DNA of 64,000 nt from a virus (IMGVR_UViG_3300005253_000144:1-64000), one strand, 5' to 3'. Positions 11,034 through 28,348 are shown, counted from the stretch's first letter. The notes: generated by a model from the sequence alone, not told the origin. Translations and numbers: made by a program.

Positions 11034-11537
11034 TTACTTCAACTGTGCCTTAATGCTGGTCAGCACTAATCGGACACCATCCGCTTTTGTCTCGTGTGCA
11101 GCCGGACGTAGATAGGGGTGCGCTGGAACTCCTGGATGGAAAACACGTTTGAAAAAATGCTTTCCGCTTTCTGGGTCATACGCAGAAATATCCTTTGGTC
11201 CGCCCGGCCAGAAAAAGGCTAAAGACTTTTTATTCTTCGCCTCTATTAATATAAGTTCGCGCTCTGATGGGTCAGATGCATGAATGCCCGAACCCAATTC
11301 GTGTGCGCGCGCATATACCAGATTAGAGCCAATCAAAATCGCCCAGATATATGGCTGGATTCCAAAAGGAATTCCCTGCGTAATGCTTCGTGCCAGACGC
11401 CCAGTTTGAACGGGCGCCTTTAATGAAGCGCGCTGCGCCGCAAGTTCTCCCCATGCTAATACACCTTTAAATACAGCGATATTTATAAGTTGTTTTAGCT
11501 TTTCTGGACCATGCTTGCGTGTGACTTTTGCGGCCAT
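11034..11537 (-). CDS. HK97 gp10-like head-tail/neck protein
   Basis: I place the start at ATG 11537, two bases after the stop of the upstream gene; a longer frame begins with TTG at 11645 but would overlap that gene by over 100 bases. The 167-residue protein carries the gp10-like core: LKAPVQTGRLARSI near residues 44-57 and a late HPYLRPA motif. Members of this family take part in head-tail joining or tail completion. It sits between the head-closure-like gene and the tail completion-like gene, as expected. Confidence 0.8.
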   Translation of the reverse strand: MAAKVTRKHGPEKLKQLINIAVFKGVLAWGELAAQRASLKAPVQTGRLARSITQGIPFGIQPYIWAILIGSNLVYARAHELGSGIHASDPSERELILIEAKNKKSLAFFWPGGPKDISAYDPESGKHFFKRVFHPGVPAHPYLRPAAHETKADGVRLVLTSIKAQLK

Positions 11538-11539
11538 TT

Positions 11540-11917
11540 TTATTGAACGCTCCGATTCGTCTGATACCGTTCCAGCGTTAATTGGATTAGAGAAATTTTC
11601 TGCGATATTGGCATTTGAGGGTAGTTTACTTTGATAATTCTCCAACGCGTATCTAAATAAGGATGATAAGACGGTGCGGTTATTAACAATTCATCCCGCT
11701 CCAAAATTATCATTGTCGCAGGGCGTACTAATGCGCGCCCCATTTTTTTTGTTTCAATACCTTGCTGTAGCAAAAGCATACTCGGCGGCATCTCCTGCAA
11801 TGTAGTAGCCACACACTCATAAACAGCCGTTCCTGTTAGTACCGCGCCACCTACATCGTCATCCGCAGCTTGATTCATGCGGATAATTGTTGTCTGCACA
11901 TTCATTCCAGCAGGCAT
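11540..11917 (-). CDS. Head closure-like connector protein
   Basis: This 125-residue protein is placed between the adaptor-like gene and the gp10-like gene. It has the small beta-barrel flavour of head-closure proteins: VYECVATTLQEM, ILERDELLI, YLDTRWRIIKVNYP. The ORF is followed almost immediately by the next start, indicating translational coupling. Assignment rests on position plus general pattern rather than a diagnostic motif. Confidence 0.65.
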   Translation of the reverse strand: MPAGMNVQTTIIRMNQAADDDVGGAVLTGTAVYECVATTLQEMPPSMLLLQQGIETKKMGRALVRPATMIILERDELLITAPSYHPYLDTRWRIIKVNYPQMPISQKISLIQLTLERYQTNRSVQ

Positions 11918-12650: not shown

Positions 12651-12962
12651 TTACTTAAACCTCGATGCCCTGGGGTCATCTGGCGTTATGATGCTGCTAT
12701 TATTACTCTTCATCATCGCTTCTTGGTCTGCCCTTAACAGCATCTTTCTCGCCTCATGTTCCAAATACGCCGAGATAGCAAATAGTTGAAAAGGGGTTAT
12801 CAAATGCATGTCAACACCCACAGGAATTGCTGTGTTGCCAGCAAATCGAATCCTTATTAGGGAATCATCTTTGGCTGGAGTATAGCTGGGATGTAGGCTG
12901 GCCTTTGTAGGTTGGTCATCATTTATGTTATCTTTGTTTGTATTCTTAGTATCATCATCCAT
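12651..12962 (-). CDS. Hypothetical structural-module protein
   Basis: A 103-residue protein whose start overlaps the stop of the glycosyltransferase gene by one base (TAATG). The N-terminus is very polar and Asn/Asp-rich, then a hydrophobic core (LIRIRFAGNTAIPVGVDMHLITPFQLFAISAYLEHEA, parts quoted only as landmarks at residues ~35-70) predicts a mixed fold. It sits at the border of the sugar block and the connector genes. No family was recognised. Confidence 0.6.
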   Translation of the reverse strand: MDDDTKNTNKDNINDDQPTKASLHPSYTPAKDDSLIRIRFAGNTAIPVGVDMHLITPFQLFAISAYLEHEARKMLLRADQEAMMKSNNSSIITPDDPRASRFK

Positions 12963-13906
12963 TATAAATACCTATAAACGTCCCATTCCAAGCCGTTTAC
13001 CCAACGGCCGCGGAATATCTGTTCATTAGCGGCCAAATTAAAACCATCAGAACCAGCTCCCTGAATAATGGAGCCGCCAACAATATGATACGCCTCTGAT
13101 TGAGGAGAGTAAACTACTTTTTTACCATGCGCCCTAGCGTTGAAGCAATAATCCACGTCCTCAAACGTCCCCTTCCCATAACCTTCATGTAGACCGCCTA
13201 TATCAGTCCATAGGCCACGGCGTGTTATGAAACACGACCCGGTTATAGATGCCATTTCCTTGCGGGTATTGACCTTTGGATTATTGCGACTCCAACCCAA
13301 GTAGATATGGATTATCTTCCCTGATATATCAACGGCATGACCCGCATGTTGCACACTTCCGGGCGGACCATGAGGCGAATCCTGTTCAGGAAACAGCAGT
13401 TTTATTCCCACAACGCCTATCTCAGGATTGTCCATTTCATTTATCAAATTGGTAATTGCGCCATTGAGCAGAACAATATCTGCGGAAAGAATAAGGATTA
13501 ATGGTGCTTTCCCCTTGGATACAGCAAAATTAATGCCGCCCGGAAACCCCCTATTCTCTTCTAACCTGACTAATTTATCCGATTTTCTTAATAGCTTTTT
13601 TACTCCCGCGGACTGTGTTTCAGGAGAGATTGTTGTTCCATCATCATTGTTGAATTCGGGCGTGCCGTTATCAAGTACGATAATGTTGTATTCAGGGCTT
13701 CCCCAATCTTTCATACCTGCTTCTATGGATTTTATCGCGCTCTCTGCCAGTGCCCATTCTCCATAAACTGGAACGATAATATCTAAAAGGGGCTGAATAT
13801 AAGGTAACACCTGTGTGTTTTCTGCCAGAGGCGATTCTTGTGGTTTAGCTTGGCTACCACTATGCCTGCGTTTCCTTTTATTCTTCGACTTTTTCTTCTT
13901 CGCCAT
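12962..13906 (-). CDS. Family 2 glycosyltransferase
   Basis: This 314-residue GT-A enzyme starts with a strongly basic tail (KKKKSKNKRKRRHS), then PLLDIIVPVYGEW and VLDNGTPEF typical of the nucleotide-sugar-binding Rossmann half. LSADIVLLN occupies the usual DxD place and GTFEDVDYCFNARAHG carries the ED motif of rhamnosyltransferase-like members. A GGAGGT ribosome site inside the upstream gene precedes the ATG, so the two genes overlap by 29 bases. It probably transfers a sugar made by the neighbouring pathway; acceptor unknown. Confidence 0.9.
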   Translation of the reverse strand: MAKKKKSKNKRKRRHSGSQAKPQESPLAENTQVLPYIQPLLDIIVPVYGEWALAESAIKSIEAGMKDWGSPEYNIIVLDNGTPEFNNDDGTTISPETQSAGVKKLLRKSDKLVRLEENRGFPGGINFAVSKGKAPLILILSADIVLLNGAITNLINEMDNPEIGVVGIKLLFPEQDSPHGPPGSVQHAGHAVDISGKIIHIYLGWSRNNPKVNTRKEMASITGSCFITRRGLWTDIGGLHEGYGKGTFEDVDYCFNARAHGKKVVYSPQSEAYHIVGGSIIQGAGSDGFNLAANEQIFRGRWVNGLEWDVYRYL

Positions 13907-15224
13907 TTTGGTTTACCTCCGAATTCTCACTAATATCTTCCACGATTGGGGGTACAGGCTGTGGAACGCCTGAGGGTATTGTGCCGATTTGTTGAGCAGT
14001 GTTCTGCACCGGGTTCGCTGCCAGTTTTTCCTTGGCAATTTCCCTGTCAATCACATCCTCCAATAAAATCCCCGCAACATCCCAATTCCTGCCCTCGGCA
14101 TATAGTCTTGCTCTTGTAATAATCTCTGCCAAAGTCGAATTCTTGTTCTTGGTTTCCCAATATTTAATGATTTTTAATAATTGCGCCGCGCCAGCCTCCA
14201 CATCTACATAACTACGCCTCGAATTTCCCCATACATCAATATGCGTGAATTCCACCGGGATAGTAAAACCACGTTCACCATCATAGTTTGTATTTATGCG
14301 CGCTGTTTCCGCATCTTCAAAAATGTGTTCTATAAGAGCGGCGGCGTGGGTGGCAAGAACAGGAACGCCAGCCGCCATCGCTTCAATAGCTGGCATTCCC
14401 AAACCTTCGGCCTTGCTCGTTAGCATAAATAGGTTTGAAAGAGCAACCAGTCGCCACATTTCCGCAAATGAAATACCCCGCTCAAGGCATACAAAATTAC
14501 CTGTCATCCCATATTTTAGGGCAAGGTCATCTAATCTCCAACCCACTGGGGATTCTTTCCTTGTTACCAATATCCAATGAATCCTCGCATATTTTTCGCG
14601 CGCCTTGGCAATAATTTCCATCGTAGCAGATAGGTTTTTGCGTTCCTGATTATCCGCTACTGTGACAATCACGAAATCTTCGTCTTCAAAACCCATTGAC
14701 TTTCTTAGCTGCCTCTTTTCTCCCTCAATCGGCATTCTCCATGCCTTGGTATCTAGGCCAATACGAATATGTTCACATTCAGCCCCCGCATCTTCAAGCA
14801 TATTCTTTCCATGCTCACTAATAACCAATCGAGCGTTCAAATTACCTAGTCCCATCGCCCAGGTCTGGCAAATAGGACCATCTTCAACAGGGAAAATACC
14901 AATATGCGGCACAGGAATCTTTTTCGCATTTGCAATACCAATTTGCAACGGGATATCAAGGGCGATTACAACTGCTTCGACAGGTTCGTTTCTTCCCGAT
15001 ATGCCAAGTTGATGCAAATTATGCATCATGGCCGGGGCGTGAGTCATCCACATATGGGGCTGTACCGGAAGTAGGGAAAAAGGCCAGTGGTGTTCTTCGC
15101 CCGTATATCCAATACCAAGTGCCGTTACTTTTTTGCCACGCGCTACTAATTGATTGCATAGTGCAAGGGCAATGTTCATATACCCGCTCCCCTTTAAATC
15201 CAAATCACTTAAAAATATTATCAT
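13878..15224 (-). CDS. Family 4 (GT-B) glycosyltransferase
   Basis: The 448-residue protein has the two-lobed GT-B layout. The C-terminal lobe has the retaining GT4 signature: ADNQERKNLSATMEI, then LFMLTSKAEGLGMPAIEAMAAGVPVLATHAA with the E-x7-E-like segment EGLGMPAIEAM near residue 275. An extra ~70-residue Pro/Glu-rich tail ends the protein. It overlaps both neighbours by a few bases, as in an operon. Donor and acceptor cannot be deduced. Confidence 0.9.
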   Translation of the reverse strand: MIIFLSDLDLKGSGYMNIALALCNQLVARGKKVTALGIGYTGEEHHWPFSLLPVQPHMWMTHAPAMMHNLHQLGISGRNEPVEAVVIALDIPLQIGIANAKKIPVPHIGIFPVEDGPICQTWAMGLGNLNARLVISEHGKNMLEDAGAECEHIRIGLDTKAWRMPIEGEKRQLRKSMGFEDEDFVIVTVADNQERKNLSATMEIIAKAREKYARIHWILVTRKESPVGWRLDDLALKYGMTGNFVCLERGISFAEMWRLVALSNLFMLTSKAEGLGMPAIEAMAAGVPVLATHAAALIEHIFEDAETARINTNYDGERGFTIPVEFTHIDVWGNSRRSYVDVEAGAAQLLKIIKYWETKNKNSTLAEIITRARLYAEGRNWDVAGILLEDVIDREIAKEKLAANPVQNTAQQIGTIPSGVPQPVPPIVEDISENSEVNQNGEEEKVEE

Positions 15225-16279
15225 GCTAATTTACCTCTTTCAAATAATTCTTCCCATCGTTCGGCCACTTTCTCATAGCTGAAACGGCGTTCTGCCCCAA
15301 GCTGCATTCGGGCTTGCTTATCTTGCAAAGATTCCCTGTCCGCCGTTAATGTCTCTATAATTCGATTACTGAACAATTCAATCCATAAATCTGAAGCCGG
15401 GTTGCCGGCAATTATCTGCCCAAACTCATTTGTAGTAGTTAAAGCCCCTCTATCAGACGTTATTGGCAATGCTCCAGCTATTTGACATTCAGCGGCGGAT
15501 ATACAAAATAGTTCATCATAGGTGCATGGGTAACTCAAAATCTCGGCTTGCAGTTGGTGTTTAATCAATTCTTTTCGCGGTATCCGGCCAAGGAAACTGA
15601 CATCCTTTTGTCCCATCCATGCTAGGCGGTGTTTGGTATTATTTGCGCTAGTACTTCCCCATAAACGATAATCACTCGTAATAACAAGGCTGGCATCTGG
15701 CACCTTTTCTTTAATCTGTGGCCATGCGCGTAGTAACTCAGCCAATCCCCGGTCGGGAATACTGCAATAAATTAGGCGATACGCCACCTTCTTAATAACA
15801 TCTTTATTTTCATATTCCCACGCTCTTACCCCTATATCGATATGGCCCATTTTTGTTAGCGGTATTCCATAATGCGCGTGATGATAATTTGTATGGAATG
15901 GCGAAATAGTAACTACATAATCAACTCTTTGGCCCAATTGATGAAAATCTCCAACCGTAAATTGGTCTGTTGACCAAAAGATGGTGCGTTGTTTTGTCGG
16001 AATACGGGTATGGAATACACGCGGGTTTGGGCTACGGAAGATGAGCAAAATATCACGTGGGTGTTCGGTAATGAATTCAGCCAAGGCACGGTAGGCAACC
16101 CCATCATATGTACCAGGATGGTCTGGGTCGTTATATACAGTCACTTCATGACCTCTCTTCGCCAATACCCGCATTAATGACATCATTGCCAATTCTGCAC
16201 CACCAACTCCGCGCCCATCTATAATTGGCGGTGTTACTCCAATGGGACTTCCGTCATTTGCAATCAGATGAATCTTCAT
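15221..16279 (-). CDS. Family 4-like (GT-B) glycosyltransferase
   Basis: A 352-residue GT-B protein: GGAELAMMSLMRVLAKRGHEVTVYND near residues 26-51 is the typical N-lobe glycine loop and helix, and the C-lobe has YCSIPDRGLAELLRAW and EILSYPCTYDELFCISAAECQIAGALPI, an E-x7-E-like donor site. GGAG precedes the ATG at 16279. It lies directly after the RfbH-like gene, so a role in using the deoxysugar is plausible but unproven. Confidence 0.88.
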   Translation of the reverse strand: MKIHLIANDGSPIGVTPPIIDGRGVGGAELAMMSLMRVLAKRGHEVTVYNDPDHPGTYDGVAYRALAEFITEHPRDILLIFRSPNPRVFHTRIPTKQRTIFWSTDQFTVGDFHQLGQRVDYVVTISPFHTNYHHAHYGIPLTKMGHIDIGVRAWEYENKDVIKKVAYRLIYCSIPDRGLAELLRAWPQIKEKVPDASLVITSDYRLWGSTSANNTKHRLAWMGQKDVSFLGRIPRKELIKHQLQAEILSYPCTYDELFCISAAECQIAGALPITSDRGALTTTNEFGQIIAGNPASDLWIELFSNRIIETLTADRESLQDKQARMQLGAERRFSYEKVAERWEELFERGKLA

Positions 16280-17580
16280 TAAATTTCACTCCTGAAAAAC
16301 CCGATGATTTTATTTGCGGTATAGGTCACCATTTCCGATGTCAGGCCAGGCCAAATACCTACCCAAAATGTATTGTCCGCTATTATGTCTGTGTTGGGCA
16401 CAGTAACGCTTGCATTTATAGCAGAATATGCAGGTTGCTTAAGTAAATTGCCTCCGAATAATCTGCGCGTCCCAATTTTGTGGCTTTCCAAATATTTTGT
16501 CAGTAGCACACAAATATTAGGTTCGCGAACTGTTATAGGAAACCCAAACCAGCTAGGCTCAGAATTTTTTGTCGCGCGTGGCAGATGAATAAATTCCTCA
16601 AGCCCGGATAGTAGCCCATACATTTGTTTAAAATTCTCCCTTCGTTTGGCCACAAATGTTTCTATCCGAAATGTCTGGGCTAATGCAATCGCTCCCTGAA
16701 AATCGGTTGATTTGAGATTGTATCCTATCCGGCTATAAATATATTTATGGTCATAATTATGAAGTTGCGGAAAATCCCATTCAAACCTTTTCCCGCAGGT
16801 GTTATCTTCACCAGTTTTGCACCAGCAATCACGTCCCCAATCACGATAGCTGTTTATCATTTTGTTGACTATTGGTGATTTGGTAAAAACGACCCCACCC
16901 TCACCCGCCGTTATATGATGTGCCGGATATAGTGAGAGAGTTGACATCAATCCAAATGTGCCTGTTAACTTACCTGCATATGTGGACCCAAGCGCATCAC
17001 AATTATCCTCTATTAGATGAATGCCTTTTTCCTTACAAAGAGCCAATACATCTTCGATGGGAAAAGGGTTGCCTAGTGTGTGCGCCATGAATATCCCAAC
17101 CGTATCTTTGTCTACTGCATTAGCAATCATATCAATGGTTGGCACATAGGTTTCAATCTCAACATCCACAAATCGTGGAATGAATCCGTTCTGAATAATA
17201 GGATTTATTGTAGTTGGGAATCCTGCCGCGGCGGTAATGATATTAGACCTGCCCTGTATCCTATCCACAATTTCTTTAAGTGTGGTTATTGCTAGTAGGT
17301 TTGCGCTAGAACCCGAATTGCACATGCTGGCAAATCGCAGCCCCAAATAATCGGCTATTCTTTTCTCAAACTTCTCCACAAATCGCCCCTCAGTAAAATG
17401 CATATCAAACGCGGCCGCAACCGCATTTTCTACTTCTAATCCGCCAACCACCTTGCCGCTTGCCGGAATAGGGGTTAGTCCAGGCTTAAATGATGTGACC
17501 TGCTTTTCAATCAATTTTGATTCACCATATTTATGCGCAAGGGTTTTGATATCAGCTTCTAGGGCTTCATAATTTATCAT
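16279..17580 (-). CDS. rfbH: CDP-4-dehydro-6-deoxyglucose 3-dehydratase (E1)
   Basis: A 433-residue fold-type I PLP/PMP protein of the DegT/StrS group. The usual Schiff-base lysine is replaced by His at ~221 in LYPAHHIT, as in the E1 dehydrase of 3,6-dideoxyhexose synthesis. Four cysteines at ~194, 252, 254 and 262 give the spacing C-X57-C-X1-C-X7-C, which is the [2Fe-2S] ligand pattern of that enzyme. It should remove the C3 hydroxyl of CDP-4-keto-6-deoxyglucose with an electron-donating reductase (E3), which is not in the window. I use the ATG at 17580 rather than a TTG three bases before it. Confidence 0.92.
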   Translation of the reverse strand: MINYEALEADIKTLAHKYGESKLIEKQVTSFKPGLTPIPASGKVVGGLEVENAVAAAFDMHFTEGRFVEKFEKRIADYLGLRFASMCNSGSSANLLAITTLKEIVDRIQGRSNIITAAAGFPTTINPIIQNGFIPRFVDVEIETYVPTIDMIANAVDKDTVGIFMAHTLGNPFPIEDVLALCKEKGIHLIEDNCDALGSTYAGKLTGTFGLMSTLSLYPAHHITAGEGGVVFTKSPIVNKMINSYRDWGRDCWCKTGEDNTCGKRFEWDFPQLHNYDHKYIYSRIGYNLKSTDFQGAIALAQTFRIETFVAKRRENFKQMYGLLSGLEEFIHLPRATKNSEPSWFGFPITVREPNICVLLTKYLESHKIGTRRLFGGNLLKQPAYSAINASVTVPNTDIIADNTFWVGIWPGLTSEMVTYTANKIIGFFRSEI

Positions 17581-17589
17581 CAAATATCT

Positions 17590-17964
17590 CTATATTAGAT
17601 TATAGATAACTAAGAATTCTTCGATTGAAAGGCTATGAAATCCATCATAAGACATGGCCAATTGAGCAACATCGCCAGTAATGAAATAGGCTTCTGATAT
17701 ATCACCATGTTCTATGGCTGCACGTTGCGCCATTTCCGTTATTGCAAAGGACAGAGATTGATAATCACCGCCGAGAACTAATGTATAGTCTGGATGGAAT
17801 TCGGCTAAAATCCGATTCATTATTTTCGTGCTCTCCAACGCATCCGCATTTGATTCCATTATCACTGCCACAAGATTTCCCTCAGCCCGTAACTGCTCAA
17901 TAAGAATAACTATGAGGGGCATCCCTTTCAGAGCCGAGCTATCAAAAATATAAAGATTGGCCAT
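17590..17964 (-). CDS. Hypothetical small protein in the deoxysugar cluster
   Basis: A 124-residue protein set between the epimerase-like and rfbH-like genes with gaps of a few bases. Alternating strand/helix pattern (NLYIFDSSAL, LVAVIMESNADA, YTLVLGGDYQS, AYFITGDVAQLAMSYDGF, SIEEFLVIYN) suggests a small Rossmann or PIN-like fold with Asp residues at strand ends. This resemblance is weak. It may be an accessory protein of the pathway; I do not assign a function. Confidence 0.6.
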   Translation of the reverse strand: MANLYIFDSSALKGMPLIVILIEQLRAEGNLVAVIMESNADALESTKIMNRILAEFHPDYTLVLGGDYQSLSFAITEMAQRAAIEHGDISEAYFITGDVAQLAMSYDGFHSLSIEEFLVIYNLI

Positions 17965-17969
17965 ATCAG

Positions 17970-18467
17970 CTATTCCGAAATTTCCTTATTATATTCGCCA
18001 AGGCTGAGCGGGAAATTTAATAATGCCTCAAGCGGAGTGCGAATAATTTCATCTGGGTCATGCGGAATGCTTGCAATATTACAAATTATGGCTGAATTAA
18101 CGCTACCTTCTTTTGCCCTAAAAGCATTCCATATGTAGGGTGGGATAGTTAATAATACATAATGCGGACCATCCGCAGCAAGTTCAATTTTCATGGGTGT
18201 TCCAAAAGTTATGCCCCCAAAACGTTCATCGTATAAAAATATTGTGGCGCGTCCGCTTACGCACAGATAGCGTAACGTCATTTTTGTATGTAAGTGCCAT
18301 CCTTTGATAATCCCTGGATTTACCTCAGAGAAATAAATCTCGCCAATTTTGTTGTCTGCGGAAATGAACCATTCCTCATCAGTTCTTAATCCATGCTTTA
18401 CCGAACCGCGCAAATCGCGAATCACATCTCTTTTTATGGTTTCAACCCCTTGAATGATGTGCACCAT
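17970..18467 (-). CDS. dTDP-4-dehydrorhamnose 3,5-epimerase-like cupin
   Basis: The 165-residue product resembles RmlC-type sugar epimerases: EIYFSEVNPGIIKGWHLH at ~43-60 with the G-W-H-x-H cupin motif, YLCVSGRATIFLYDER, and IPPYIWNAFRA. In CDP-ascarylose synthesis an epimerase of this kind (AscE) acts after E1/E3, so the context supports a hexulose epimerase. The WHxH form is typical of the RmlC-like branch rather than classical RmlC, so a different regiochemistry is possible. AGGAG lies upstream of the ATG. Confidence 0.78.
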   Translation of the reverse strand: MVHIIQGVETIKRDVIRDLRGSVKHGLRTDEEWFISADNKIGEIYFSEVNPGIIKGWHLHTKMTLRYLCVSGRATIFLYDERFGGITFGTPMKIELAADGPHYVLLTIPPYIWNAFRAKEGSVNSAIICNIASIPHDPDEIIRTPLEALLNFPLSLGEYNKEISE

Positions 18468-18469
18468 AT

Positions 18470-19483
18470 CTATTTGCTCCTAAAATAACTTTCATACCAA
18501 GCTATTGTGTTTAATAAATTTTTTGTGAATAGTCCCGAATTATCAGGACGTATCCAGCCCAAATCTTTCTTGGCCTTATCATCTCTAATAATTATTCTGC
18601 TACTCTCGCCTTTAGCGGTATTCAATATCTGCAATTGTAAATCTTCTCGCTTCATCAGACTCAATAATTGCTTCACCAAATCCCCTACCGTCCACCATAA
18701 ACCGCCAAAATTATATATTTCCGCAGTGTCGATATTGGGGAGTTGTTCATGAAGGCTATTGGCAAGAAGTAAATATGCATGAATGGCGGCTTCAACATTT
18801 ATATATTCCCGCACAGGCATACCATCGCTCCGGATTTGTGGACTCCGGTCATGTAGGATATCCCGAATTGTCTCTGGAATAAGCCGCTTAAAGTTCAAAT
18901 CTCCAGGTCCAAATATATTTGCCATGCGAGCAATGGTTATGGAAAGCTTATAGTGATTTGCATAGGATTGCGCAGCCAAATCCGCTGCGGCCTTGCTCGT
19001 GTCATAGGGATGTCCGGGATTTGGTATTAGCGTTTCCCTCAAACCGCCATGCGCCATTTCAGAACGGTCTTGCTTGCCATATGCTTTATCAGAGGAAGCG
19101 ATGATAATCTTGGCATTGGGAGCAATCCTTTTGGTCGCCTCTAAAAGATTAACAGTTCCCATAACGTTTGTGTCCCATGTCTGCCGCGGGACCTGCGCCG
19201 CCTCTGTCACTTGCGTAATCGCGGCCAAATGAAATATATAGTCGGGTTCAGCGATGGTAATTGCGCGTTCAATCTGTTCATAGTTCCGAATGTCGGCCTG
19301 GATTGTTCTTACCTGTAACGGCCAATCATTAGTAGGCGCATAGACTTGGCGCACGAAATCCGCATTATGCACTATGGCAAACAGATTTTCTGTTGCGTGA
19401 TTTAGCGCATACATTAAATGGCTACCCACAAAGCCATAAGCACCAGTAACTAGAATTCTTTGGTTCGTAAATATTGATAGCAT
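18470..19483 (-). CDS. rfbG: CDP-glucose 4,6-dehydratase
   Basis: A 337-residue extended SDR enzyme. GAYGFVG at 14-20 is the NAD loop, SSDKAYG at 130-136 carries the active Ser/Asp/Lys set used by 4,6-dehydratases, and Y160-x3-K164 is the SDR catalytic pair. NIFGPGDLNFKRLIP and IRSDGMPVREYINVE match the RfbG sub-family. It would convert CDP-glucose to CDP-4-keto-6-deoxyglucose, the substrate of the neighbouring RfbH. Directly downstream of the cytidylyltransferase gene. Confidence 0.88.
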   Translation of the reverse strand: MLSIFTNQRILVTGAYGFVGSHLMYALNHATENLFAIVHNADFVRQVYAPTNDWPLQVRTIQADIRNYEQIERAITIAEPDYIFHLAAITQVTEAAQVPRQTWDTNVMGTVNLLEATKRIAPNAKIIIASSDKAYGKQDRSEMAHGGLRETLIPNPGHPYDTSKAAADLAAQSYANHYKLSITIARMANIFGPGDLNFKRLIPETIRDILHDRSPQIRSDGMPVREYINVEAAIHAYLLLANSLHEQLPNIDTAEIYNFGGLWWTVGDLVKQLLSLMKREDLQLQILNTAKGESSRIIIRDDKAKKDLGWIRPDNSGLFTKNLLNTIAWYESYFRSK

Positions 19484-19486
19484 TGA

Positions 19487-20245
19487 TTACCTTCCTTCCA
19501 GCCAAGGCTTTCCTGCCTTATAATCGCGTTCTAGTTGTCGGCGATTTCGCGGCGTATCCATCATCTGCCAATAGCCATTATGGATACATGCGCCTAGTTT
19601 ATTTTGTTCGGCCAAATTGGGCAATATATCAAATTCAAAACGCACACTCTCATTCCTAATGGTATCTAATAGTTTTGAATCAACAATGTAGAAACCGCCA
19701 TTAATATAGGCATTATCAATCTGCCGTTTTTCTGCAAACCTAGTTACATAGCCCGATTGTAATTCCAGAACACCAAAGCGTGCTGGAGGATGTACAGCCG
19801 TTAATGTAACCCACGTGTCTTTTTGAGATTGACAAAGCATATTGTGGAATACTTCTAATTTCGGCAAATTTATGTTTCCTAATCCGTCTCCATAAGTTAG
19901 AAAGAACCTTTCGCCCTCATCAAAATGATTTGCCAATCGCAATAGCCGCCCACCGGTTGGCGTTTCCAAACCAGTGTTGACTATTGTCAAATTTTCTACC
20001 CCGGCAGCCCTTTGATTATATCTTTCTCCCCATTCTCGAATAATTTCGTGTTTAAATCCAGCCGCAATGATAAACTCGCGATATCCCTGCTTGGTATAAA
20101 TATTAATGATTAGTTCAAGTATTGGGATTCCTCCGATGGTGACCATCGGCTTAGGAATCAACCCCTTTGTCTCTTCTTGCAGGCGCGTTCCCTTACCCCC
20201 GGCAAATATAACTACCTTACGAACAGAATCAATTTGGTTTACCAT
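19487..20245 (-). CDS. rfbF: Glucose-1-phosphate cytidylyltransferase
   Basis: The 252-residue protein contains the nucleotidyltransferase signature AGGKGTRL (15-22), IPKPM, FFLTYGDGLGNI and RFGVLEL, with the RfbF-specific ending FEFDILPNLAEQNKLGACIHNGYWQMMDTPRNRRQLE. It makes CDP-glucose, the committed step towards 3,6-dideoxyhexoses. I choose ATG 20245 because an AAGGAA site lies 8 bases upstream and the length then equals the family norm; a longer frame to 20299 would overlap the sulfotransferase gene. Confidence 0.9.
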   Translation of the reverse strand: MVNQIDSVRKVVIFAGGKGTRLQEETKGLIPKPMVTIGGIPILELIINIYTKQGYREFIIAAGFKHEIIREWGERYNQRAAGVENLTIVNTGLETPTGGRLLRLANHFDEGERFFLTYGDGLGNINLPKLEVFHNMLCQSQKDTWVTLTAVHPPARFGVLELQSGYVTRFAEKRQIDNAYINGGFYIVDSKLLDTIRNESVRFEFDILPNLAEQNKLGACIHNGYWQMMDTPRNRRQLERDYKAGKPWLEGR

Positions 20246-20261: not shown

Positions 20262-20978
20262 CTATTTTTCATAGCCCATAATTCGCATTGCTTCAACAAT
20301 CCCGTTATCTTTCCAGAACGTCTTTATATGCTTGGCTTTAAAATGGTTTTTCCAGTCACCAATTTCCCCCTTGCGAAACGTTGGAGATTCATTAGGCTTA
20401 ATTCTTTGTGCCAATGTTGTAGATGATTCGTTACGAAACACATCAGGCGCGAACTTTATCATTTCTTGGCAAGTCGCCAGCGGAACTGTGCGAAAACTCT
20501 CGTATTTTAGCGGCAGGATATTCGCATCTTTGTAATCATTCGCACGACTAATCCAGGGCGTTATTTCTGCCAACCGTTCCCCCAGACCACATATTATATC
20601 CATCATCGGGTCAGGACGTGTGTGAAGAAGCTGGCCGGAAACCCTAAAATTTTGTGCTGAAGAAGCAAAGAATTTCTTAACATGGAACATATGGGCCACT
20701 ACGCAATCGCGCGGGTCTCGTATAAGTAATATTGTTTTGATTCCCATTTTCTCCAATAGATAATAAATGGTGTCGTTCCAGGGTACATGCCCAACACATC
20801 GCCTTTTATTCGTAAGCGGTTGAAAGCTTTCCCAAAGGTCTTCGCGTATAGCATCGATATCCCTTTTAATGCCCCCAACGTCTGTTTCATACCTACGGAT
20901 ATGCCAATCCGCCCTTACGATTTGCAAGAGCATATTAGTGCCTGAATTAGGGAATGAGTTGACCAATAAGTGTTGCAT
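20262..20978 (-). CDS. PAPS-dependent sulfotransferase
   Basis: The 238-residue protein has the cytosolic-type sulfotransferase elements: 5'-phosphosulfate loop SFPNSGTNML (8-17), 3'-phosphate site RDPRDCVVAHMFH (87-99) and the C-terminal loop FRKGEIGDWKNHF (201-213). It would transfer sulfate from PAPS to a glycan or other acceptor. The ATG at 20978 lies two bases after the methyltransferase stop with a GGAA site; an upstream TTG is less likely. Lying inside the sugar block, its acceptor may be the phage-made glycan. Confidence 0.85.
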   Translation of the reverse strand: MQHLLVNSFPNSGTNMLLQIVRADWHIRRYETDVGGIKRDIDAIREDLWESFQPLTNKRRCVGHVPWNDTIYYLLEKMGIKTILLIRDPRDCVVAHMFHVKKFFASSAQNFRVSGQLLHTRPDPMMDIICGLGERLAEITPWISRANDYKDANILPLKYESFRTVPLATCQEMIKFAPDVFRNESSTTLAQRIKPNESPTFRKGEIGDWKNHFKAKHIKTFWKDNGIVEAMRIMGYEK

Positions 20979-20980
20979 TA

Positions 20981-21652
20981 TTATTCCACGGTTTGCATAG
21001 TCGAATGGCAAATATACCGATATTCCACAATCGGGGGGTGCCGTGGGTCAGGAATAGTCACCTCTGGATTATGTACTTTATATATTTCAGCATTCATTTT
21101 AAGTGTGTCAATCCCAATAGGAAACCATCCTGCTCGCTTTAAATACCATTCTATTTGCACGTTATTCATCATTGAATAGTGGTTTCTGCCCGCATAGGTC
21201 CAATATTCAGGAGCGGGAGCAATTAGATATAACCATTTAATTGAAACCCGCTGCCATTCCATTAAAGTAATTAGCGGAAAGGGAGAATGTTCTAGGACGT
21301 GTCGGGCAAATAACAAATCAAATGAATTGTCAGGAAATGGCAAAAATGTCATGTCGGCTTCATGCACATTTAACCCCACCGCCTTGGCAATTGCGTAATC
21401 CTCCCCGCGTGTAACTCCAGTCCAATCATGTAGTCCAACTTGCGCAAATAATGGTTTACAAAAACCAGCCGCACAGCCAATGTCCAAAACATTTTTAGTT
21501 GATTCTTTAGCGGCGGTCTCGTAATATCTATTAATGGCGTCCTCTGCCCAGGCGCGGTGACCAGCGTCTTCTGGCTGGGGATAAATATCCTGTGCCAATT
21601 CTGATAAATACGCATCGAAATGTTTATATTTATTATTCAAATCGTTTGGCAT
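20981..21652 (-). CDS. SAM-dependent class I methyltransferase
   Basis: A 223-residue protein with motif I VLDIGCAAGF at 55-64, a following acidic strand (EADMTFLPFPDNSFDLLFARHVLEH) and post-motif helix typical of type 11/25 small-molecule or sugar methyltransferases. It overlaps the GT2 gene upstream by 20 bases and is followed immediately by the sulfotransferase. Methylation of a sugar is the contextual guess. Substrate unknown. Confidence 0.85.
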   Translation of the reverse strand: MPNDLNNKYKHFDAYLSELAQDIYPQPEDAGHRAWAEDAINRYYETAAKESTKNVLDIGCAAGFCKPLFAQVGLHDWTGVTRGEDYAIAKAVGLNVHEADMTFLPFPDNSFDLLFARHVLEHSPFPLITLMEWQRVSIKWLYLIAPAPEYWTYAGRNHYSMMNNVQIEWYLKRAGWFPIGIDTLKMNAEIYKVHNPEVTIPDPRHPPIVEYRYICHSTMQTVE

Positions 21653-22373
21653 AGTCTGGCAATTCCTTTAGTGGTCCAGCGAATTCTAGTGGGTGTTTTG
21701 TGTGCTCTCCCTGAACCGCATGATAAAATTCCAACTTAGTTTTGGTTGTTTCTTCATCTGGCCATGTGTAATGTAATAAACATACAGGCGGTTCAATGTA
21801 AAAGCGATTTTCACGTTCTGGAATATTCTCTATAGTCATACCGCCGTCTTCATCACCAATCTCTCTTGCCCGAACATCTACATCTGAGTGCCACGCCCAC
21901 ATACTTTGGCCGGGTTCGTTTAATAAGGGGAAGTATTTATCTAGCCCCCAAAGATACAGGCGATAAAGAAAGACTGCCTCATAATTATTATAATGAGCAG
22001 TTTCAATTAGCAGACGCCCCTGCTGCTTTAGTGCATAATTGGGAAGACTGTCACAATCGTCAAATATTATCCAATCAGCACCCTCCTCTTCAATTGCCCA
22101 ATCAATTAAGAAGTTCACATGCCTACCCTGTGGATTAAAATGATGACCATTCTTTTCTACGATGGTCGGGAATTCTCTTACTTCAACAAAGTCATACAAT
22201 GATGCAAACTTAACGGTATCGTCCGTGCTCCCTCCATCTGCAACTAATATTTTATCAGCCCAAACATAAGAACTGCAAAAAGGCTCAATATATTTTTCCT
22301 CGTTCATTGTTCTGACGATAACGACAATTTTTAGTTTATTTCCGTTTGATATAACTTGTTTGGTGTTTGGCAT
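21633..22373 (-). CDS. Family 2 glycosyltransferase
   Basis: With the ATG at 22373 (AAGGTG site 7 bases upstream) the protein has 246 residues. KIVVIVRTMNEEKYI opens a GT-A fold, VADGGSTDDTV follows, and IIFDDCDSLPN carries a D-x-D-like metal site. This is the pattern of the waaE/KdtX-like sub-group. A longer frame to 22436 exists but runs into the upstream gene. It overlaps the methyltransferase gene by 20 bases. Acceptor unknown. Confidence 0.87.
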   Translation of the reverse strand: MPNTKQVISNGNKLKIVVIVRTMNEEKYIEPFCSSYVWADKILVADGGSTDDTVKFASLYDFVEVREFPTIVEKNGHHFNPQGRHVNFLIDWAIEEEGADWIIFDDCDSLPNYALKQQGRLLIETAHYNNYEAVFLYRLYLWGLDKYFPLLNEPGQSMWAWHSDVDVRAREIGDEDGGMTIENIPERENRFYIEPPVCLLHYTWPDEETTKTKLEFYHAVQGEHTKHPLEFAGPLKELPDYAKRFE

Positions 22374-22776
22374 TGGACACACCTTTATTAAATAATTCAG
22401 ACGTATAAAAATAACACACAACCAACTGCTTGCCATTATCAGAGATTCCCATTTCCATAGCTTGTGCGCCTGTAATTAAGACCGCCGGAGAGCCGCAAGT
22501 ACACATTGCGAACCACCTGCCGCGCCCACCTTCTCCCTGTTCTTCATAAAGTGGGTCAGCATAGATAAAATGCTCCCCATGATATTCAGCACATTTCACG
22601 GCTTCGGTCTGTGCAGGGCGGTTACCATCGCTGGGAACTGTAAAATAGATATACTCTTGCTTCTCTACCTTATGGCCGCTGTCCAAAACGGCGGATTTAG
22701 GGTCGCCGCGGCGTTTGATTAGATTAAGTCTAGTAGTCTTTAAGTCAAATCCATTATTGTCGCCTATGGTTTTCAT
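22336..22776 (-). CDS. Hypothetical phage protein with a CxC motif
   Basis: The 146-residue protein starts at an ATG that overlaps the stop of the CgeB-like gene (ATGA). It contains AEYHGEHFIYADPLY, then RGRWFAMCTCGSPAVLI near 85-100, a short Cys motif of the type found in small phage zinc-ribbon proteins. The end of the gene overlaps the next glycosyltransferase by 38 bases. It is the least sugar-like gene in the block. Function unknown. Confidence 0.65.
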   Translation of the reverse strand: MKTIGDNNGFDLKTTRLNLIKRRGDPKSAVLDSGHKVEKQEYIYFTVPSDGNRPAQTEAVKCAEYHGEHFIYADPLYEEQGEGGRGRWFAMCTCGSPAVLITGAQAMEMGISDNGKQLVVCYFYTSELFNKGVSNAKHQTSYIKRK

Positions 22777-23681
22777 AGCAAATCCATCTTTTCTAACAAT
22801 GTTTGAATACGTGCATCCCAAGTATGCGGCTCTACAGCTCGGCGTGCTGCAAAGCCCAGGCTTTTGGCCCTCTCTGTATCTTGCATTATCTCTTGAAACT
22901 TTTCTACTGCATCGGACACATTGTCAAACCCAATAAAATGTTCGCCATCAATGAAAAGTTCCATGAGGTCGGGAGTCCGATTCAGCAAAGGAACAATACC
23001 GAAGGCCATGAGTTCATATACTCGCGCTGTCGTATCCTTTAGGCTGGAATGATTGAATCCTACTTTTGTGTTGTGATAAATTTCTCTGGCATCATCATAG
23101 GCCAATCCTATATCAAAATAAGTGGCATAATTTTGGCTTTTTAGCAGATTAAAGAACTCGATTCTTTGCGTATATTGTAGTCCGATAAGACTCGCATCTA
23201 TCTCCCTTTCTGCCCATGGCTTGGGCGTTTGGGCATGATAAATCGGGTCATAGGCATAGGGTAGCCATACGTCATTTGGTTTCATATAGGGCTTTTGCAT
23301 ACAAAAGAATTTTGTCGCGCGCCCGCGTAGTTCATCATAATTCAATACATGTGGGTCGGTCCCAACAACTGCATATGGAGCATTAGTTGGGGCAGCAGGC
23401 GAAGTTAATCCGGCGTTGACCTCCAACCATAAATCGGGGGTCCAGGGGCATAGATTTTCAAGCATTTGGTAATTGATTAATGGCGGACTTGATAGCGGCA
23501 ATGGATAATCTGGCGTGTAAACATATTCGGGGGGGAGCACCATGCCCCCGCGCCACGGAATATTGCGACCAGTGAAAGGACCAGCAGTCCATATTTCTAC
23601 GTCTTTCCGGCGTAGCAACGCTTCAAGGAAATATCTTCCCATTGCTACTGGATAAAAAATAGTTGTGAAGGCAATTCTCAT
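22773..23681 (-). CDS. CgeB-like glycosyltransferase
   Basis: This 302-residue protein resembles the CgeB/Glyco_trans_1_2 group: MRIAFTTIFYPVAMGRYFLEAL, YAVVGTDPHVLNY, VWLPYAYDP, DASLIGLQYTQRIEFF, then NHSSLKDTTARVYELMAFGIVPLLNRTPDLMELFIDGEH, the donor-site loop with the conserved R-V-Y-E-x-M-A-x-G. Ending NVSDAVEKFQEIM and AVEPHTWDARI is also typical. Four-base overlaps on both sides show an operon. Donor and acceptor unknown. Confidence 0.85.
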   Translation of the reverse strand: MRIAFTTIFYPVAMGRYFLEALLRRKDVEIWTAGPFTGRNIPWRGGMVLPPEYVYTPDYPLPLSSPPLINYQMLENLCPWTPDLWLEVNAGLTSPAAPTNAPYAVVGTDPHVLNYDELRGRATKFFCMQKPYMKPNDVWLPYAYDPIYHAQTPKPWAEREIDASLIGLQYTQRIEFFNLLKSQNYATYFDIGLAYDDAREIYHNTKVGFNHSSLKDTTARVYELMAFGIVPLLNRTPDLMELFIDGEHFIGFDNVSDAVEKFQEIMQDTERAKSLGFAARRAVEPHTWDARIQTLLEKMDLL

Positions 23682-23995
23682 GGCGCCAGATATAGGACTA
23701 TCCAGATTGACAATAAATGTAATGCTTGGTCATCCATCGCTTTTACAAAAAGATAATCATCTTTCTTGAATAGGCGATTCCATAAACTACCTAATTGAAA
23801 GCCATCAATTAATAGGTGTGTAATTGCTATCATTATGATTTGGCCGAGGGAAAATCCGAAGACTACAAATGGAAGTGCCGTAACCAATACATGTACGACG
23901 AGAACTTTCCGGCTTTCCCTCTTGTTCTTTGTCATCCAGGAATTTTGTAAGAGCCAATCTCCCAGCAAGTGTGCGACAAGGGCATTGATAAACAT
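23678..23995 (-). CDS. DUF3307-like membrane protein
   Basis: The 105-residue protein begins at ATG 23995, 8 bases after a perfect AGGAGAAG site; a longer frame lacks such a site. It has the DUF3307 pattern: AHLLGDWLLQNSWMTKNK, VVHVLVTALPF, THLLIDG and a last hydrophobic helix, so three or four membrane segments with conserved His/Asp. Biochemical role of the family is not known. Its place among glycosyltransferases might mean a membrane-bound sugar step, but this is a guess. Confidence 0.78.
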   Translation of the reverse strand: MFINALVAHLLGDWLLQNSWMTKNKRESRKVLVVHVLVTALPFVVFGFSLGQIIMIAITHLLIDGFQLGSLWNRLFKKDDYLFVKAMDDQALHLLSIWIVLYLAP

Positions 23996-24009
23996 CGATT
24001 CTTCTCCTT

Positions 24010-24753
24010 TTATGGTTTTTCTGGAACATTTGGTAGCCCCCACTTTTCAGCGAAGACCGCACGCATTTTTATGGTTTGTTCTCTTCGTGCCGTTGAATAT
24101 CCTATCGTTCCCGCGCCTAAATGTTTTATTGGAAGTGTTGGAAAATCTTGGACTATATTTAATGGGACAATCCCAGCATTCTTTTCTGACAACAACTCTA
24201 CCTCGCGCGCGAGGTCGATGTCTTCATAGTCAAATGGGTAGTAACGCGTATCAAACCCCTTAATTGCTCGCCATGTTTTTTGTGTTAGCGCAAGCCAATA
24301 TCCTTCGCCATATGTAACGACAATGTTTGCAAAAGAATTCCAGCCTGAATTCCAATCCACCTTTCTATGGCACGCCAATCCACCGGCCTTGCAGTGCTCA
24401 TAAATTCTCAGCCCCACTTCTCCCCCCAAGAAATCGCCAAGCATCACTACATCATTTGAATACAAAATCAATACCTCACCCTCTGCTATTTTTGCGGCAT
24501 GATTAAATCCGCTCCCAAACCCATTATTCTCCATAACCCTATATGCCCTTAAATTCGGATATTCTTGGGCATTATGAACAAACATCTCTGAGATTTCAGA
24601 GCCAATACTTCCATTATCAATAAGAATGATTTCTGTGTCTTTGCGCGGAACTAGATATGAAATTGCCTCAGCCATGCGCTGGCGCGCTAGAGCAATTTTG
24701 TTGTAATTTAATATTAGAACTGAGTATTTATACCCGTGGGTTGAGGGGTTCAT
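24010..24753 (-). CDS. Family 2 glycosyltransferase
   Basis: A 247-residue GT-A protein. The ATG at 24753 has AGGAG ten bases upstream within the RmlD-like gene. Motifs: YSVLILNYNK, IILIDNGSIGSEIS, ENNGFGSGFNHAAK, LYSNDVVMLGDF in the metal-binding place and PFDYEDIDLAREV as the ED motif. This resembles rhamnosyltransferase-like GT2 enzymes and the one at 12962-13906. Acceptor unknown. Confidence 0.88.
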   Translation of the reverse strand: MNPSTHGYKYSVLILNYNKIALARQRMAEAISYLVPRKDTEIILIDNGSIGSEISEMFVHNAQEYPNLRAYRVMENNGFGSGFNHAAKIAEGEVLILYSNDVVMLGDFLGGEVGLRIYEHCKAGGLACHRKVDWNSGWNSFANIVVTYGEGYWLALTQKTWRAIKGFDTRYYPFDYEDIDLAREVELLSEKNAGIVPLNIVQDFPTLPIKHLGAGTIGYSTARREQTIKMRAVFAEKWGLPNVPEKP

Positions 24754-25564
24754 GAACAGCGCGCTCCTGGCTGTGATATTCCTCCAAAGCCTCTTCAACT
24801 TTAAGAATTGGCAAGCCTAAACTTTTTGCCAATTCTATTGATAGACCTGCGTTTCGAGGTCGTGGAGCCGCGCCTTTAATTTTGTTCGTTGCTAATATAA
24901 GATTGTGGTCGTAATCAAATTTTTTCGCTATCAGCCTTGCAAATTCATATCGCGAAAGGATTGATTCGCCAGCAATATGTAACAGCCCTATTCTACTCTT
25001 TTTCGTAGCCAATTGCAATAGCGCATCTGCCAATGATGGAATATAGGTGGGATTTCCATAAAGGTTTTTAGGCATTTCTATTGGCTTATTGAGGGCAAGC
25101 ATTTCTCGGACAGCCCGCACAAAATCTATGCGTGAGCCATGGCCAAAGAGGTCTAGTGTTCGTACAACACAGGTTGGATTGCGAATATTGGCAGCTTGCT
25201 CTCCGCCAAACTTTGACCACCCATATTCGTTCAGTGGGTCCGGCTTATCATTTTCCGAATAATTCCCCTTCTCCCCATTAAATACATAGCCTGTCGATAT
25301 GTGAATGAAAAAGCCCAAAAATTCTTGGCGCAGAATACCTACACCACGATGATTAGAACTAAATAGGGCATCCTTCTCTGCCTCCTTCTCCGCATCATCA
25401 ACGGCTGTATATGCCGCGCAGTTTATTAATACATCAATGCTTTCCCGCTCCAACGCATCCCTAACCGCTTCACGGTCATCGATACGCATTTCAAGCGGGA
25501 CACACCCGCGTTTAATTAACTCACTGCCTAGCCGCCCATTTGGGCCAGTAACCCCTATCTTCAT
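24728..25564 (-). CDS. dTDP-4-dehydrorhamnose reductase-like SDR (RmlD family)
   Basis: The 278-residue protein has the short RmlD layout: GPNGRLG at 7-13, DVLINCAAYTAVDDAEKE, HISTGYVFNGEKGNYSENDKPDPLNEYGWSK with Y114-x3-K118, VVRTLDLFG, and a C-terminal segment with RPRNAGLSIELAKSLGL. RmlD reduces a 4-keto sugar nucleotide; in this cluster it could perform the final reduction of the CDP-dideoxyhexulose, as AscF does. I use ATG 25564 instead of TTG three bases upstream. Confidence 0.83.
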   Translation of the reverse strand: MKIGVTGPNGRLGSELIKRGCVPLEMRIDDREAVRDALERESIDVLINCAAYTAVDDAEKEAEKDALFSSNHRGVGILRQEFLGFFIHISTGYVFNGEKGNYSENDKPDPLNEYGWSKFGGEQAANIRNPTCVVRTLDLFGHGSRIDFVRAVREMLALNKPIEMPKNLYGNPTYIPSLADALLQLATKKSRIGLLHIAGESILSRYEFARLIAKKFDYDHNLILATNKIKGAAPRPRNAGLSIELAKSLGLPILKVEEALEEYHSQERAVHEPLNPRV

Positions 25565-25567
25565 CAA

Positions 25568-27133: not shown

Positions 27134-28348
27134 TTAGCCGATTGTCGGACATGTGGTTTGGATACGCCCGGTGAACTGAGTCGTATACGCACCATGAGCG
27201 CAACAGTGTTTGATAATCAAGGCAGTCTTTGCCCAGACCTCAAAGCTAATCGCGGTACAACCCGGCACCAAATCTTTAAGTGCCAGCGGGATTTGCGTCA
27301 GCTTGTACACAAGGGGCACTCCATTATGATTCATGCGGAGCGCATAAACAATGCTTTGGAATGCGCCAGTGCCCATATCGGCGGAGGGGAAGTTGTTGTC
27401 AGCGACCACTGCTAAACGGCCAACACCCGTATTGACAAATCCGGCAAAGTTGAAACCGGGAACAATACGGTCGCCAGTAGAGAAGTTGACGATTTGGCTA
27501 CCTTGATAACCGAGCTGGAAATAGGCCGACAGCACTTCTTGCATTGCTTGCGGAGACCCAAATATATGGGTCGGTTTTGCGCAAGTTTCCGCCAGGAAGC
27601 GGTCAAAAGAGATGGCCGAAAATGTTCCAGAGGCTGAGTTGTCGTTGGTATTTGCGCCGCACGCCACATCACCTAGGCGATTGACAATACCATCAAATTC
27701 CAAAGAATTGTTGTCAACATCACCGTTCACCAACAAATTGTCCCAGCCGTTAAGAACTAGGGTCATCGATAAACGTACTTCCTTTTCCTTAACATCGGCA
27801 ACATGTTCTTGTTCAAATGTGCCAACATCGGAGCCGCCAGGAACGCCTTCACCGGCAGGAATCGCACCAACAAGTTGGTTTATTCCGTGCCAATTCGCGC
27901 CCGCGACAGCACGCGAATGCATGATGTCTGAGATGGACAGAGTTTTCTTTGCGCCGATATTCTTCAATGGGACAGTAGTGTTCTCGCCATCATGCGTGTA
28001 CTCTTCCGGACATTCACCATCGGCAAATGAGATATAGGCCGAACCAGACGTAAAGGCCAGCGAGTTTAGCTCACGCCAAGTATAGGCTTGGAGCGCGGTA
28101 GTGTCTTCGGGAAGTGCCTGCCAGACAGTAATTTCCTCGCACATTGCAATGACTTCTGTCGGGTCAAGGGGCGTCGGGTATTGAGCAGCAAAATCTGCTG
28201 GTGATACATAGGGTTGGGGCAAGATTACCGGGTCAGTGGTGCGCTGCACCGCAATTTCGGACTCGAATTCCTGCCCATGGCTTCCACCCAAATCCAGGAC
28301 TCTTTCGCCAGCAATATCAGGTGTAGATAGCGGATTATTGATAGTCAT
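27134..28348 (-). CDS. Major capsid protein (HK97-like)
   Basis: A 404-residue protein following the protease/scaffold gene. It has the HK97-fold rhythm: an N-arm, an EITVWQALPEDTTALQAYTWRELN segment, KEKEVRLSMTLVLNGWDNLLVNGD, then NSLEFDGIVNRLGD as the conserved domain entry, and HIFGSPQAMQEVLSAYFQLG. Seven cysteines are unusual for a capsid protein. GAGGAAAA lies upstream of the ATG and a strong terminator downstream, as expected for the most expressed head gene. Confidence 0.85.
   Translation of the reverse strand: MTINNPLSTPDIAGERVLDLGGSHGQEFESEIAVQRTTDPVILPQPYVSPADFAAQYPTPLDPTEVIAMCEEITVWQALPEDTTALQAYTWRELNSLAFTSGSAYISFADGECPEEYTHDGENTTVPLKNIGAKKTLSISDIMHSRAVAGANWHGINQLVGAIPAGEGVPGGSDVGTFEQEHVADVKEKEVRLSMTLVLNGWDNLLVNGDVDNNSLEFDGIVNRLGDVACGANTNDNSASGTFSAISFDRFLAETCAKPTHIFGSPQAMQEVLSAYFQLGYQGSQIVNFSTGDRIVPGFNFAGFVNTGVGRLAVVADNNFPSADMGTGAFQSIVYALRMNHNGVPLVYKLTQIPLALKDLVPGCTAISFEVWAKTALIIKHCCAHGAYTTQFTGRIQTTCPTIG

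Follow-up and report, generated by a model that had tools for sequence, protein, structure and literature searches.

The window analyzed here, a 64,000-nucleotide stretch of DNA, belongs to a 102,174-base record of an uncultured tailed phage. Genes for RfbF, RfbG, an RmlC-like epimerase, and RfbH had been predicted from the sequence to lie side by side at 16279 to 20245, with an RmlD-like reductase further along, and both placements were confirmed, the reductase at 24728 to 25567 (Table 1). When an orphan gene is included, five adjacent genes make up the minus-strand cluster at 16279 to 20245, and 4.5 kb separates the RmlD-like gene from rfbF. The sugar genes are within the structural module of the phage, as originally claimed, with matches to terminase, portal, major head, neck, and tape-measure proteins flanking them. 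From an acidic-repeat gene (26353) to the neck gene (11034), the minus-strand genes overlap or are no more than 19 bp apart; because of this spacing, the whole run is inferred to form, probably, one transcript. Between the major capsid and neck genes, the packed run encodes six glycosyltransferases, none of them polytopic, together with one sulfotransferase and one methyltransferase. The GC content of these genes matches that of the window.

Table 1. Features of the sugar gene island and its boundaries, in order of decreasing coordinate
Feature	Coordinates	Strand	Evidence or remark
Major head protein, upstream boundary of island	27134..28348	(-)	phrog_212, 7e-05; 56-77% identical in lineage loci
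RmlD-like 4-keto reductase	24728..25567	(-)	PF04321, 1.4e-50
Glycosyltransferase, family-2 type, island core	24010..24798	(-)	PF00535, 1e-10
Glycosyltransferase, island core	22773..23681	(-)	PF13524, 2.2e-18
Glycosyltransferase, family-2 type	21633..22436	(-)	Weak, under Pfam cutoff
SAM methyltransferase	20981..21652	(-)	PF08241, 6.7e-11
Sulfotransferase	20262..21011	(-)	PF00685, 1.3e-15
RfbF-like glucose-1-phosphate cytidylyltransferase	19487..20245	(-)	TIGR02623 best model; PDB 1tzf, E=4.6e-50
RfbG-like CDP-glucose 4,6-dehydratase	18470..19483	(-)	TIGR02622 best model; SDK and YxxxK motifs
RmlC-fold cupin, likely sugar epimerase	17970..18467	(-)	AlphaFold pLDDT 85.8; Foldseek
Orphan, 124 aa	17590..17964	(-)	Between RmlC-like and RfbH genes
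RfbH/E1, CDP-4-keto-6-deoxyglucose 3-dehydrase homolog (PMP and [2Fe-2S] enzyme)	16279..17583	(-)	NF011936 score; PDB 3bcx match
Codon span of Cys195, Cys253, Cys255, and Cys263, cluster motif C-X57-C-X1-C-X7-C	16795..17001	(-)	Cysteine positions
Codon of His222, at PLP-binding lysine position of aminotransferases	16918..16920	(-)	Alignment to 3bcx and 3bb8
Glycosyltransferase, family-4 type, island core	15221..16279	(-)	PF00534; 51-60% identical after E1 in nearest relatives
Glycosyltransferase, family-4 type, island core	13878..15224	(-)	PF00534; conserved in relatives
Glycosyltransferase, family-2 type, island core	12962..13906	(-)	PF00535; conserved in relatives
Neck/tail-completion protein, downstream boundary	11034..11645	(-)	phrog_5, 9.9e-10

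The 434-residue RfbH homolog, or E1, scored 546.6 bits against the NCBIfam equivalog model for RfbH (NF011936), for which the cutoff is 423. Its best solved relatives were the Yersinia E1 structures 3bcx and 3bb8, with the alignment spanning nearly all of the window protein (E of about 1e-127; 1.3e-127 for 3bcx), a match that, judged by sequence comparison, is far beyond chance. Two signatures claimed for this protein, a His where aminotransferases have the PLP lysine and a C-X57-C-X1-C-X7-C cluster pattern, both proved exact. The window sequence SLYPAHHIT aligned with SFYPAHHIT of 3bcx and SFYPAKHIT of 3bb8, placing His222 (SLYPAHHITAGEGG) at the PLP-lysine position, opposite the residue mutated to Lys in 3bb8, and cysteines 195, 253, 255, and 263 reproduced the cluster spacing. 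All four cysteines were retained in 84 of 87 viral E1 rows, a set that counts the window twice and contains one likely contaminant from Salmonella, and in 79 of 80 bacterial loci; the viral scan used short motifs, and these counts are somewhat biased toward family-typical sequences. Placement with PLP-lysine aminotransferases, which would have refuted the identification, was not seen: the protein lies above the RfbH cutoff and clusters with E1s in trees. The aminotransferases were compared by score only and were absent from those trees. An intact E1 within a phage-encoded CDP-3,6-dideoxyhexose route is thus supported, with its 3-dehydratase activity remaining an inference.

The two enzymes predicted to act before E1 were identified with less margin. 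RfbF scored 212 bits against TIGR02623 (curated cutoff, 300) and RfbG scored 165 bits against TIGR02622 (curated cutoff, 278), so specificity for CTP is not proven. The best PDB relative of RfbF was 1tzf, and its nucleotide-binding motifs were retained in aligned relatives. The ATG at 20245, taken as its start, is preceded by two other in-frame starts; the mechanical open reading frame begins at a TTG at 20299. An Asp-Lys pair, which we take to be a mark of RfbG, was present in RfbG as SSDKAYG, and the YxxxK active site as HPYDTSK; both were conserved among relatives.

Identity of the RmlD-like reductase is clear from its family match, and that of the RmlC-like protein rests largely on its fold. 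Pfam matches to the latter were weak, with FdtA the sole family exceeding its cutoff. A Foldseek search with the AlphaFold model returned the sugar isomerase 3ejk, followed by the epimerases RmlC, ChmJ, EvaD, and WbcA, with query-normalized TM scores of about 0.7 to 0.8 for RmlC, EvaD, ChmJ, and WbcA. The protein has a conserved His58 and an H-X-H motif, without a clear general-acid Tyr; by sequence, this H-X-H motif also fits 3,4-ketoisomerases, and other activities are open. The RmlC- and RmlD-like genes probably serve the same pathway as E1, which would point to an ascarylose-like end product. The orphan between the RmlC-like and RfbH genes had no match in Pfam, NCBIfam, or PHROG, and its fold model was poor (pLDDT 51.5).

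The proposed route needs a source of electrons for E1. The absence of a linked E3 reductase, anticipated in the original prediction, held when no E3, flavodoxin, or ferredoxin reductase could be located in the 102-kb record; there were no matches to Fer2 (PF00111), NAD_binding_1 (PF00175), or flavodoxin (PF00258) in this record, which may be incomplete. Fer2 was likewise missing from 42 viral records with E1, and a regular-expression scan of 80 bacterial loci, run without a positive control, found no plant-type ferredoxin motif of E3 near E1. Fer2 proteins were encoded elsewhere in all 16 bacterial genomes checked. Outside the classic enteric clusters, lack of a linked E3 therefore seems to be normal. 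Since ferredoxin or flavodoxin reductases can serve SpnQ, an enzyme of the E1 type (PMC8987622), it is reasonable to infer by analogy that a host reductase may supply the electrons.

Searches of other phages and of bacterial clusters, which had been suggested as a check, showed how widely this arrangement recurs. E1 homologs were present in 81 records of a phage collection, chiefly from Synechococcus phages and with about 30% identity. E1 relatives are also encoded in at least 114 IMG/VR stretches, and published lists of viral auxiliary genes already include rfbH (PMC10653327, PMC11295528). The expectation that such a route would be unusual in a phage consequently fails for E1 alone, which is known in viruses, and stands for RfbF and RfbG beside E1, a combination that is rare. 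In the phage collection, RfbF had no convincing relative in isolated phages, matching only fecal metagenome contigs and Salmonella records, and the capsid protein of the window had no match at all. In six phages (the window, L002, L003, L008, L043, and L171), the genes are arranged as RfbF-RfbG-RmlC-RfbH and continue into the same glycosyltransferase run. RfbF-RfbG-RfbH clusters were common among the bacterial loci examined; a contig from a bacterial metagenome-assembled genome (L118) carries RfbF-RfbG-RmlC-RmlD-RfbH as a single run, and another bacterial locus (L107) has RmlC-RmlD close by. The best match from a named phage, the E1 of Salmonella phage S.Kent (48% identity), is on an unverified 2.6-kb contig and groups with bacterial E1s, and it was treated as host contamination.

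In two trees, phage E1s were separate from bacterial E1s, with 7 changes compared to 27 in shuffles. The window E1 grouped with those of five other phages of its capsid lineage (support 95), nested in a phage-only clade of 20 (support 92), and its closest bacterial relative was only 51% identical. The trees were quick ones with some long branches. These phage-only clades suggest that E1 has probably been resident in phages for a long time.

Comparison of loci encoding related capsid proteins separated constant from variable parts of the island. A capsid-protein scan yielded 50 loci, of which 27 distinct ones had at least 8 kb downstream of the capsid gene and formed the base for counting islands; at least two core glycosyltransferases followed the capsid gene in 26 of these 27. 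The glycosyltransferases are thus linked to virion genes both by the packed run and across capsid-lineage loci, and the sugar genes vary between those loci. In whole-record searches, good-quality RfbH relatives were present in 18 of 29 lineage records, three of them lacking the Fe-S cysteines and keeping the catalytic His. RmlD occurred in all 18 records with RfbH versus 3 of 11 without it (Fisher P = 3.8e-5, uncorrected for kinship); after pairing on the capsid tree, the association was not significant, with two to three pairs for it and none against, which is too few. RfbF was found in 8 of 30 lineage records searched, and because the majority of RfbH-positive members lack it, their substrate must come from elsewhere. 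On the capsid tree, RfbH changed state at least four to six times. We read the island as a fixed set of glycosylation genes with a swappable sugar supply. More tentatively, and as no more than a possibility, this exchangeable module could vary the virion glycan as bacteria vary their O-antigens, with a host-powered, E1-dependent 3,6-dideoxyhexose as one option and the E1s without cysteines representing reductase-free chemistry.

Together, these observations make it fairly probable, short of confident, that the window encodes a host-reductase-dependent supply of a CDP-3,6-dideoxyhexose, plausibly ascarylose-like, inside a virion-glycosylation island. In such a scheme, RfbF would form CDP-glucose, RfbG would convert it to CDP-4-keto-6-deoxyglucose, and E1 would strip the 3-hydroxyl using PMP and its [2Fe-2S] cluster, giving CDP-4-keto-3,6-dideoxyglucose, the product of E1 (PMC8987622). 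Since no E3 is encoded in the phage record, E1 would draw its electrons from a ferredoxin or flavodoxin reductase of the host. C5 epimerization would probably fall to the RmlC-fold enzyme, and C4 reduction to the RmlD-like enzyme, yielding an ascarylose-type CDP-3,6-dideoxy-L-hexose. Ascarylose is 3-deoxy-L-rhamnose, and it is predicted here since an RmlC-fold epimerase with an RmlD-like reductase parallels L-rhamnose synthesis. The six soluble glycosyltransferases, the sulfotransferase, and the methyltransferase could then, in the cytoplasm of the host, assemble the sugar into a glycan, for which the most likely acceptors would be capsid or tail proteins from the same gene run. The enzyme identities rest on comparisons of sequence and structure; the order of steps, the product, the electron donor, and the virion target are inferred. 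The virion is the probable carrier of the glycan, although direct evidence for that link is lacking.

That target was weighed against two others. Remodeling of the surface of an infected or lysogenic host (lipopolysaccharide [LPS] or capsule), akin to seroconversion, would fit the occurrence of 3,6-dideoxyhexoses in LPS (PMC8987622) and the bacterial relatives found among O-antigen-type glycosyltransferase clusters. However, no open reading frame in the 102-kb record reached four predicted membrane spans in a simple hydropathy count, and no Bac_transf-type initiating sugar transferase was found there. There is therefore no sign of O-antigen export machinery, and the lack of a polytopic flippase or polymerase and of an initiating transferase argues against glycan export and favors a target in the cytoplasm, such as the virion. 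The island genes also continue into the neck genes as a single packed stretch, and 26 of the 27 lineage members keep soluble core glycosyltransferases beside the capsid gene, leaving host-surface remodeling unlikely. Hypermodification of phage DNA against restriction has precedent in phages that encode DNA-modifying glycosyltransferases (PMC12619734, PMC9614988), yet the 102-kb record has no hydroxymethylase of the thymidylate synthase family, the genes sit in the head and neck run, and a sulfotransferase with six glycosyltransferases is inferred to fit a protein glycan better; we regard this role as very improbable.

The pathway genes could instead serve two different sugars, one made by RfbF, RfbG, and E1 and the other by RmlC and RmlD, for example, on a CDP-6-deoxyhexose branch leaving CDP-4-keto-6-deoxyglucose. 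Within the lineage, L176 encodes RfbF and RmlC and neither RfbG nor E1, RmlD is present in three members without RfbH, and the RmlC fold search also matched WbcA of Yersinia enterocolitica, an epimerase of a CDP-sugar. Against these stand the position of RmlC and RmlD between RfbG and RfbH in the single bacterial run, the RmlD gene adjoining E1 in another locus (L005), and the presence of RmlD in every RfbH-positive lineage record, so that division into two pathways is doubtful while remaining a serious possibility. The genes could also be recent cargo from a host O-antigen cluster, with no function in the phage. Capture does happen, as RfbF and RmlC of L176 are 63 to 64% identical to bacterial copies, but the window E1 groups with five phages of its own lineage and has no bacterial relative closer than 51%, frames and catalytic residues are intact at 43 to 56% identity, and GC content matches that of the window. 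We give this explanation almost no credence.

Among bacterial surface sugars, 3,6-dideoxyhexoses are rare, and they are familiar mainly from O-antigens. As far as our searches reach, a near-complete CDP-3,6-dideoxyhexose route in a phage head-neck run, with exchange within a capsid lineage, is new. If the phage does make such a sugar for its own particle, virion glycosylation would reach beyond sugars taken from the host to an Fe-S pathway that the virus itself encodes and the host supplies with electrons. The exchange of sugar genes next to a conserved capsid gene across the lineage also offers a specific example in which variation of phage-particle glycans can be tested.

The same three enzymes, with the E1 His and the C-X57-C-X1-C-X7-C pattern, are found in the Yersinia and Salmonella O-antigen clusters (E1/AscC/DdhC/RfbH with RfbF and RfbG). 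Unlike in those clusters, the window genes are in a tailed-phage head-neck run, have no linked E3, and encode an RfbF and RfbG that fall under model cutoffs. In the ascarylose pathway of Yersinia pseudotuberculosis, an epimerase (AscE) and a reductase (AscF) accompany E1 and E3, which matches the 3,6-dideoxy-L-sugar logic inferred for the window, where the enzymes taken to correspond are RmlC- and RmlD-like. Cyanophage E1 homologs (S-H68, S-B05, RB11-B, and others) are also phage encoded amid sugar genes, and that of S-H68 has the His and four Cys, whereas they are 33% identical to the window E1 and no RfbF homolog was located in those phages. In the Megavirinae, fibril glycosylation clusters combine virus-encoded pathways for rare, bacterial-type sugars with glycosyltransferases and vary between clades (PMC10117803); these are giant viruses of amoebae, and no 3,6-dideoxyhexose pathway was found for them in the literature searched, in contrast to the route in the window. 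Glycosylated phage capsids are known, and in mycobacteriophages Che8 and Rita glycosyltransferases are thought to decorate the capsid (PMC11256854). That precedent consists of glycosyltransferases, to which the window adds a nucleotide-sugar pathway with an Fe-S dehydrase.

Three relatives of the same phage lineage encode RfbH (E1) relatives in which the catalytic histidine is retained, with the motif SFYGSHHVTA in L195 and L198 and SFYASHNVTA in L200, and the cysteines of the C-X1-C-X7-C pattern are missing. These proteins form a single clade (support, 100), and the L195 protein scored closer to E1 than to ColD. The His-Cys region could not be aligned in the shortened or diverged RfbH-like proteins found in the sugar-gene island at four other loci. 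At L213 the match to E1 is split in two pieces within one open frame, which might represent an E1 that carries a large insertion or fusion.

Coordinates of island-associated and related features
Locus	Positions	Strand	Feature
L195	12327-13526		Cys-less RfbH relative
L198	4983-6365		Cys-less RfbH relative
L200	3924-5138	minus	Cys-less RfbH relative
L209	15190-16122		RfbH-like
L214	11491-12675		RfbH-like
L215	15838-16827		RfbH-like
L234	15316-16296		RfbH-like
L213	17239-19716		open frame, 826 aa
L003	8803-9911		MobA-like and HAD phosphatase genes
L008	8813-9583		MobA-like gene
L176	9998-11240		RfbF and RmlC-like genes
Window	23678-24043		small membrane protein
L087	6784-7221		small membrane protein
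Window	25568-26353		Glu-Pro-Glu-Ala-repeat protein

Between RmlC and RfbH, two relatives carry genes weakly matching MobA-like nucleotidyltransferases, accompanied in L003 by a HAD phosphatase gene; the inserted genes may provide a second nucleotide sugar.

One phage record encodes two small membrane proteins that resemble each other, one of them within the island. Separately, a strongly repetitive acidic protein is encoded immediately upstream of the window RmlD gene, close to the capsid gene.

At L176, RfbF and RmlC-like genes occupy the same island position, with RfbG and E1 absent. Bacterial copies are 63-64% identical to this pair, which is apparently a recent exchange.
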